Source: an uncultured Pseudomonadota bacterium
Lineage (GTDB): Bacteria > Myxococcota_A > UBA796 > SXON01
Direction: 5' to 3'
Assembly: GCA_903844155.1 (NCBI GenBank)
Contig: CAIMSU010000315.1
Span: 1-45,244, forward strand
DNA: 45,244 nucleotides
The notes below the pieces were generated by a model. That model did not search any database. It was not told where the DNA came from and was given only the letters and a program-made list of their open reading frames with translations. Below, piece by piece: positions 11,413-12,914 of the stretch (the first letter of the stretch is position 1; each line of letters begins with the position of its first letter). A program made the position numbers and the translations under genes.

Positions 11413-12576
11413 ATGCGTGAAGTCGTCATCTGCGTCGCCGTTCGTTCCGCGGTTGGAAAAAGCGGCCGTGGAAGCCTGAAAGACACGCGTCCCGACGACA
11501 TGCTCGGGCAGGTCATGAAGGGCGCCCTGGCGCGCGTGCCGGCGCTCGACCCCGCCGCCATCGACGACGTCGTCATCGGCACCGCCACGCCGGAGGCCGA
11601 ACAGGGGATGAACGTCGCCCGTATCGCCTCGTTCCTGGCGGATCTTCCGGACAGCGTGCCGGCGGTCACCATCAACCGCTTCTGCTCCTCGGGCTTGCAG
11701 TCGCTCGCGCAGGCGGCCGCGTCCATCGCCGCGGGCTGGCAGGACATCGCGCTCACCGGCGGCGTTGAGAGCATGAGCGTGCTCGCGATGGGTGGCCAGA
11801 AGCCAAGCCCGAACCCGGGTCTGGTCGAGCGACGGCCGGAGGCCTACACGCCGATGGGCATCACGGCCGAGCTCGTCGCCGAGAAATACGGCGTCTCGCG
11901 CGCGGACCAGGACGCGTTCTCGGTCGGCTCGCACGCAAAGGCCATCGCCGCGATCAAGGGCGGGCGGTTCGTGGACGAGATCGTGGTGCTGCAAACCCGT
12001 GTTTCGGGCGACAGCGGCTGGAAGGACATCGTCTTTGCGACGGACGAGGGCCCGCGCGCCGACACCACGCTGGAGGGCCTCGCGCGTCTGAAGCCGGCGT
12101 TCAAGGCGGACGGCACCTGCACCGCCGGCAACTCCTCGCAGACGAGCGACGGCGCTGCGGTCACGATCCTCGCGGCCCGCGAGATCGCCGAGCGGCTCGG
12201 CCTGCCGATCATCGGCATCCTGCGCAGCTATCAGGTCGCTGGCGTCGCGCCGGAGATCATGGGCATCGGCCCCATCGCGGCGATCCCGAAGGCGCTCGCC
12301 AAGGCCGGCATCACCAAGGATGACGTCGGCCTGATCGAGCTGAACGAGGCGTTTGCCGCCCAGTCGCTCGCCTGCGTCCGCGAGCTTGGCCTGAACCCCG
12401 AGATCGTGAACGTGAACGGCGGCGCCATCGCCCTCGGCCACCCGCTCGGCTGCACCGGCGCGAAGCTGACCGCCACGTTGCTCCATGAGATGCCGAGGCG
12501 GAATGCGCGGTATGGGATCGTCAGCATGTGTATCGGGGGAGGGATGGGGGCGGCGGCTGTGTTCGAGCGGCCGTAG
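11413..12576 (+). CDS. fadA: Acetyl-CoA C-acyltransferase (3-ketoacyl-CoA thiolase)
   Basis: This 387-residue thiolase cleaves 3-ketoacyl-CoA with CoA to acetyl-CoA and a shortened acyl-CoA, the last step of the cycle started by the upstream fusion enzyme. The acyl-accepting Cys91 lies in NRFCSSGLQ. The C-terminal signatures [17 protein letters not shown] (His) and [13 protein letters not shown] (second Cys) are intact, as is GGVESMS. The length is normal for the family. It lies 86 bases after fadN in the same direction and is probably co-transcribed under the operator at 8868. A biosynthetic acetyl-CoA acetyltransferase role is possible from sequence alone, but the pairing with fadN favours degradation. 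Confidence 0.9.
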
Positions 12577-12914
12577 GCGGCTCGAACTGTGCCGCCGCCG
12601 CGGAGCTGCCGGCGGTCGCGCGTCTGCGCGCGACGCGGAGCCCCCGACCCGCCCGCTGGGCGGGGCCCGGCCGGCAAGGCCGGGAGGGGGCGGAGCCTGC
12701 CCCCGTAGTCCGGCCGCAAAGGCCGGGCGTGAGGGGGCCTGCTAGGCGCGCGAACGCCGACAAGGCGTTCAGGCAGCGTAGCCTGCCCCCGTAGTCGCGC
12801 CGCAAAGGCGCGGCGATCATCCGAAAAGCCGCGATCTGACCGCGATCGGGCGGTTGAAGTAGCGGGAGCGCCCGCGTGGAGACGGTCTCCGCGTGGGTGC
12901 GCGCACCTCACCTA
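12577..12914. repeat. Intergenic tandem hairpin array, 86-bp unit with compensated stems
   Basis: This gene-free stretch lies between two convergent genes. Two units of 86 bases are in tandem, each holding two hairpins. Unit 1 has CCCGGCC-GGCAA-GGCCGGG (12666-12684) and CCGGCC-GCAAA-GGCCGG (12710-12726). Unit 2 has GAACGCC-GACAA-GGCGTTC (12752-12770) and CGCGCC-GCAAA-GGCGCG (12796-12812). The 15-mer GCCTGCCCCCGTAGT occurs unchanged at 12695-12709 and 12781-12795. Stem bases differ between units but pairing is kept, so the RNA or cruciform structure seems conserved. A further hairpin GTCGCGCG-TCTG-CGCGCGAC sits at 12615-12634. Bidirectional termination or a mobile palindromic repeat are both possible. 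Confidence 0.7.

Follow-up and report, generated by a model that had tools for sequence, protein, structure and literature searches.

A structured palindromic repeat found in one bacterial family, with long target duplications and an insertion scar suggestive of target-primed synthesis

Bacterial genomes commonly contain small palindromic repeats; for those that have no linked transposase, the mode of movement is largely unknown. To our knowledge, target-primed synthesis has been established among bacterial non-coding elements only for group II introns. Eukaryotic SINEs are non-coding and structured, and their insertions have an exact 3' junction with microhomology to the target, a variable 5' junction and long target duplications of variable length. 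Among the small bacterial repeats, Rickettsia palindromic elements (RPEs) are structured repeats of roughly 100 to 150 bp that occupy intergenic sites and also sit in frame within unrelated genes (PMC10969869); those of R. conorii have been described as CGTC-tagged, and GTAG tags have been described for REPs (PMC3733652). REPs are described as 20 to 40 bp long, usually with more than 100 copies per genome. The target duplications of bacterial MITEs are short, for example 7 to 9 bp in QMITE2 (PMC10969869).

In the window (the whole 45,244-nucleotide stretch of DNA analysed here), two pairs of hairpins follow a thiolase gene. The initial annotation had described them as an 86-bp tandem unit whose hairpins differ between copies by compensatory changes, and the 86-bp start-to-start spacing of the two copies was confirmed. 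The first hairpin reads CCCGGCC-GGCAA-GGCCGGG (12666-12684) in one copy and GAACGCC-GACAA-GGCGTTC (12752-12770) in the other, with four of seven pairs changed; the second reads CCGGCC-GCAAA-GGCCGG (12710-12726) and CGCGCC-GCAAA-GGCGCG (12796-12812), with two of six pairs changed. Pairing is kept throughout, all six differing base pairs being compensated. The segment between the hairpins is indeed invariant, but it measures 17 nt (AGCCTGCCCCCGTAGTC) and not 15. Likewise, 86 bp is the spacing and not the natural unit, which is a mobile repeat of about 107 to 125 bases made up of a modelled core of about 107 nt and a 5' hairpin; what had been delimited were parts of two such units. The locus is laid out as follows.

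11413..12576, + strand: thiolase gene (Thiolase_N, Thiolase_C), stop codon 12574-12576, directly upstream of the units
12546..12550, + strand: G-run in the last thiolase codons, the presumed original insertion target (sequence; the direct repeats of relatives start at such G-runs)
12550..12568, + strand: x, the target sequence directly past the G-run, at the thiolase gene end (sequence)
12580..12599, + strand: inverted copy of x at the 5' junction of the first insertion (16/20 match to the reverse complement)
12600..12615, + strand: unit 0, probably the 5' scrap of a third element (GCGGAG...), matching the family start GCGGAG and without a model match of its own
12615..12634, + strand: H1, the 5' hairpin of unit 1, GTCGCGCG-TCTG-CGCGCGAC (sequence, energy fold)
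12615-12738, + strand: unit 1, a full element; model match 12632..12738, model positions 1-107, 93.7 bits
12641..12690, + strand: P2 stem, 12641-12645 paired with 12686-12690, closing a three-way junction with H3 and H4 (comparative structure, unit 1 energy fold)
12648-12664, + strand: H3 hairpin (comparative structure, energy fold)
12666-12684, + strand: H4 hairpin (comparative structure, energy fold)
12700..12737, + strand: P5, a two-tier hairpin (comparative structure, sequence, energy fold)
12700-12704 with 12733-12737, + strand: P5 outer stem CCCCC/GGGGG
12705-12708 with 12728-12732, + strand: P5 internal loop GTAG/CGTGA
12710-12715 with 12721-12726, + strand: P5 inner stem, with loop GCAAA at 12716-12720
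12739..12815 (end approximate), + strand: unit 2, an element truncated at both ends; model match 12739-12823 (35.1 bits) over model positions 10-106

Unit 2 starts inside H3 at its 5' side and ends without CGTGAGGGGG. When unit 1 was folded alone by energy, the same structure was obtained at -96.2 kcal/mol, against -76.0 ± 4.0 for shuffled sequences (z = -5.0). The inverted pair of the window consists of the thiolase end and 12580-12599, directly before the unit 0 scrap, and the thiolase of a relative (G002) has the same arrangement of x and its inverted copy. The window copy has no clear direct repeat, its ends having been overwritten by later events. The initial reading of this repeat as a whole was partly supported. 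It did not include the decisive features: a longer unit with several branches, target duplications of great length, and an inverted copy of the target at the 5' junction.

The family fold was derived from a 21-row alignment of diverged stand-alone copies, the window's included, together with copies in relatives. It runs 5' hairpin, GCGGAG, P2 enclosing H3 and H4 in a three-way junction, the linker CGKAGCCYGCC, P5 and a 3' G-run; P5 comprises an outer stem, a GKAG/CGTGA internal loop, an inner stem and a GCAAA loop. In a MAFFT alignment, covariation for the hand-made structure was 0.612, versus 0.141 for shuffles. With 51 matches aligned by, and hence fitted to, the model it was 0.676, versus 0.141 for shuffles and 0.055 to 0.090 for slid versions of the structure, and 27 of 30 pairs had changed on both sides. 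The stems thus vary freely under a strictly kept fold, as had been proposed from the window's two copies when selection on structure was suggested. The unpaired parts are more constant: the H4 loop is GACAA or GGCAA in 41/51 copies, the P5 loop GCAAA in 34/51, the terminal CGTGAG is present in 44/51, and the foot of P5 is GGAG in 43/51 and GTAG in 5/51. Both-sided changes outnumbered one-sided ones by about 4:1 in independent close pairs and 8:1 over all pairs. Replacement of whole stems as blocks was considered and discarded, the clustering of paired changes per stem being nonsignificant (P = 0.07).

Mismatches indicate which strand folds. Among 38 non-redundant copies, G.T mismatches numbered 25 and A.C mismatches 2, the effective number of G.T being below 25 because some are shared by descent. 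A palindrome selected as double-stranded DNA would give the two in equal numbers; therefore, one strand folds, namely the given strand (+ in the window). The bias is compatible with an RNA intermediate, and the GACAA, GGCAA and GCAAA loops look RNA-like. A known RNA family was ruled out: the Rfam 15 covariance models gave only a chance-level match in the window, and in four copy-bearing loci the only match was a neighboring cobalamin riboswitch, with none to the element. Our literature searches found no description of the element.

A genome search with a covariance model had been named beforehand as a check of the initial reading. A DNA search of the source genome (8.13 Mb, a draft in 375 contigs) yielded 37 matches, and covariance model R1 raised this to at least 39 copies; the repeat is thus mobilised, as had been suggested, and because of these copies the refutation proposed at the outset (no further copies) fails. 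Model R1 found copies in 16 of the 22 genomes of the family, from at least 1 to at least 39 per genome (1 to 19 in the 15 relatives); these counts are lower bounds because the number of candidates scored was capped. All the genomes are drafts or MAGs, with home-made gene calls. In a sample of 282 genomes of the phylum, no copy was found outside the family (threshold E 1e-5; the filters used miss weak matches). When 84,980 species genomes were scanned with a strict pattern, 12 stretches matched, 9 of them labelled Deltaproteobacteria or (uncultured) Proteobacteria MAGs and the remaining three Klebsiella or Bifidobacterium. These three (L172, L177 and L178, labelled Klebsiella pneumoniae and Bifidobacterium breve) contain the same element; their labels look wrong, and they apparently match G005:C15, G004:C65 and G004:C81. 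In these searches the element is confined to one family of Deltaproteobacteria-labelled bacteria.

Most copies in the source genome are nested in a second repeat, and many of these lie at contig ends. The second repeat (L004, L053, L054, L060, L065 and others) spans about 210 bp, or 330 bp with the nested element; it consists of long hairpins, is often arranged in head-to-tail arrays of about 205 bp and breaks many contigs. Since it also occurs without the element, the nested copy has been amplified by its host repeat in this genome. A cobalamin riboswitch (L004:1206-1421, - strand, 105.7 bits) lies near one copy of this carrier repeat.

For the insertion scar, we examined 43 non-redundant copies with 300 to 400 bp of flank on each side. 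Direct repeats of 29 to 127 bp (85 to 100% identity) surround 11 of the 43 copies, and the other 32 have no clear direct repeat. The alignment scores of these repeats were 41 to 215, against a 99th percentile of 38 in a null of mismatched pairings, whose few high scores plausibly come from copies at homologous genes. In all 11 copies the start of the downstream repeat coincides with the 3' G-run of the element, 0 to 5 nt from a fixed point; the junction is exact on the 3' side and variable on the 5' side. The upstream repeat usually begins with a G-run as well (for example, GTGGTGGGGGGCGAC, ATGTGGGGGGCGAC and AATGGGGGCGGCC), except at L151 and L170, where the G's at the 3' end clearly belong to the element. 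Often the duplicated stretch contains a gene end including the stop codon, as at groEL (G004, G005), thiolase (G002), a DUF4394 gene (G018, G021), a sulfatase-like gene (G014) and a gene of G020 that we take to be rpsR-like from its sequence alone (127 bp).

Many copies also have the reverse complement of the target just past the G-run, placed directly 5' of GCGGAG and sometimes extending into C's that match the G-run itself; examples are CCAGCGTCGCCCCC-GCGCAG at L165, CAGGCGGCTGCGCC-GGGAG at L150 and GACCGCCGCGCCC-GCGGAG at L135. Ten of the 43 copies reached a score for this inverted piece that 0.9% of mismatched pairings attained; for L134 and the window, the stretch picked by this test differs from the one adjoining GCGGAG. 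Six readable orthologs of the L150 gene without the element have neither the duplication nor the inverted piece, and a native terminator hairpin, considered as the source of the inverted piece, is absent from them. Other copies carry the compact 5' hairpin H1 in place of the inverted piece, with no duplication detected. No source copies of fresh insertions were identified. The tandem arrays of G002, like the second, truncated unit seen in G004 and again in G018, show unequal recombination to be a further process at these loci. The fourth tandem unit at L134:4422-4512 (G002:C75) is interrupted by a near-perfect 21-bp inverted repeat (GTCAGGTTGTTACCATTACAC...GTGTAATGGTAACAACCTGAC) whose AT-richness is out of character in a GC-rich genome.

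G-runs or positions beside them are the insertion sites, frequently within a gene's final codons, and some sites have been used repeatedly. The same DUF4394-gene end was hit by three different elements (G017, G018 and G021), and the groEL end by two. At the groEL and thiolase ends, copies are present in 2 of 20 genomes each, for thiolase the source genome and G002, whose copies begin 21 nt past the stop codon. There is no model match at the thiolase site in G001, G003 and G004, the last of which has a possible element scrap (AAGGCCGCGGAGCC), nor in groEL of G003 (protein 98% identical) where G004 has the element. In G011, the thiolase ortholog (L263, G011:C137) is followed by another sort of tandem array, built of short palindromic units (GGTAGTCGCACCTCAGGAGTCGGGGGA...); repeats of more than one type thus accumulate at this gene end. 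Our home-made gene finder places several copies of the element within predicted coding sequence. In prmC of G009, the copy is in frame, with PrmC_N and the methyltransferase domain on either side within one open frame; about 100 amino acids of the G009 protein, those contributed by the element among them, are missing from prmC orthologs. A peptide similar to the inserted one (79% over 57 amino acids) is encoded in a methyltransferase gene of G013. The prmC of G011 was rejected as an empty site because a remnant of the element's end is present there. Four other neighborhoods are in-frame candidates by the same home-made gene calls.

An exact 3' end, a variable 5' end, long variable duplications and 3' microhomology are together the marks of target-primed synthesis. 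We favor, with a rough probability of 0.6, the reading that this is a lineage-specific element, structured and non-autonomous, that enters new sites through synthesis primed at a G-run in the target. A nicked target strand ending in C's would pair with the element's 3' G-run and be extended by copying the element. We infer that the inverted piece is the product of the new strand's 3' end folding back on its own primer at the element end; this snap-back would copy about 9 to 17 nt, and joining of the new strand to the other side of the staggered break would leave the long duplication. Copies would survive where the host gene stays intact, that is, at gene ends with a duplicated stop codon, at intergenic sites and at in-frame sites inside genes. 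The template could be RNA, as for a SINE, or single-stranded DNA. The more specific proposal of a bacterial SINE, a structured non-coding RNA that is reverse transcribed at G-runs from a target primer and whose 5' inverted target copy stems from snap-back priming, is tentative and rather less probable than not. RVT_1 domains occur in 11 of the 22 genomes, not linked to element copies; 20 RVT_1 loci contained only weak element matches (27 bits in L279), and RVT_1 had no match in six copy-bearing draft genomes (G004, G005, G010, G014, G019 and G020). The six copy-bearing genomes without a detectable reverse transcriptase argue against a dedicated one, but not against an RNA or single-stranded DNA template copied by a host polymerase. 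An all-against-all comparison of ORFs in 41 copy neighborhoods revealed no shared neighbor gene that could serve as mobiliser.

The main rival is a by-product of replication or repair: on stalling at a G-run, a polymerase would use microhomology to jump onto an existing copy, cross its hairpins and return, so that the intervening stretch is duplicated with no dedicated enzyme or RNA. Such template switching accounts for the duplications, the microhomology and the inverted piece, and is in keeping with the lack of any reverse transcriptase or RAYT linked to the copies; we nevertheless consider it unlikely, as it does not account for the conservation of a single fold with its loops throughout the family, or for a 3' junction that always falls at the same point of the element. 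The GGAG or GTAG at the foot of P5 raises the prospect that a Y1 (RAYT) transposase mobilises the element in single-stranded DNA form, as for REPs. Y1_Tnp searches of the 22 genomes, with model searches of the locus flanks, led us to reject this mobilisation as highly improbable: none of the 21 Y1-transposase loci in the family is flanked by the element (best score, 21 bits; E = 0.014), and Y1_Tnp has no match in three copy-bearing genomes, G004, G012 and G018. Long target duplications also do not fit single-strand IS200/IS605 insertion. The source genome's two RAYT-like Y1 transposase ORFs, L051 (G000:C268:23798-24133) and L052 (G000:C113:46399-46722), are each flanked on both sides by a private palindrome (TATCAAAAGCGACGACGTC... 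and CCACAACTGC...GTGGTA, respectively) unrelated to the element.

Another alternative is that selection keeps the element at gene ends as a cis-acting 3'-UTR RNA, which would stabilise the mRNA or terminate transcription. In keeping with this, several copies follow a stop codon by 8 to 56 nt in the orientation of the gene, with the same genes affected in different species, and the GNNAA-type loops are constant. Yet the sporadic presence at groEL and thiolase, the many copies that are antisense, far from genes or within coding sequence, and the lack of a T-run after the copies make this alternative very unlikely; the same-gene copies are explained by different elements re-using one G-run. Vertical conservation at gene ends as a sign of cis function was rejected, given sporadic presence and recurrent insertion. 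The bidirectional terminator entertained in the initial annotation fares no better: these G+C-rich hairpins, unlike intrinsic terminators, have no T-run (TTTT within 20 nt past the end in 0/43 copies), the fold is strand specific, and at groEL of G004 a typical intrinsic-terminator-like sequence sits farther downstream. The adjacent, similar units of the window would also result if a native terminator-like hairpin had simply been duplicated in tandem and the compensation were a matter of chance, but this is refuted by the wider family, with at least 39 copies in the source genome and family-wide covariation, and by the six orthologs whose native gene ends show no such hairpin; we give it practically no weight.

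Compared with the described systems, the element resembles RPEs in size class, structure and in-frame insertion in protein genes (here prmC of G009), and is set apart by their descriptions: it belongs to another lineage and has long target duplications and the GKAG/CGTGA loop. With REP/RAYT palindromes it shares GTAG or GGAG at the 5' hairpin foot (48/51 copies) and dispersal mostly between genes, but it is four times longer (at least 107 nt), has several stems, occurs in 1 to 39 copies (lower bounds) and has no RAYT link. Like bacterial MITEs, it is non-coding and mobile, with stable folds and target duplications; its duplications are variable, at 29 to 127 bp, whereas those of MITEs are of short, fixed length. 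The duplications of the element are far longer than is usual for small bacterial repeats. The insertion scar is shared with eukaryotic SINEs, from which the element differs in being bacterial and having no linked reverse transcriptase, an RNA form being only proposed. A REP tag without REP size, number or RAYT, an RPE-like entry into proteins and duplications unlike those of MITEs together define a small mobile palindromic element with a SINE-like insertion scar.

The insertion scar of this family can thus be read: long duplications of variable length, a 3' junction that falls exactly at a G-run, and an inverted piece of target. Together they point to target-primed synthesis. In addition, the family supplies ample covariation data for a new three-way-junction fold, and its in-frame copies are a natural example of structured elements becoming part of proteins.
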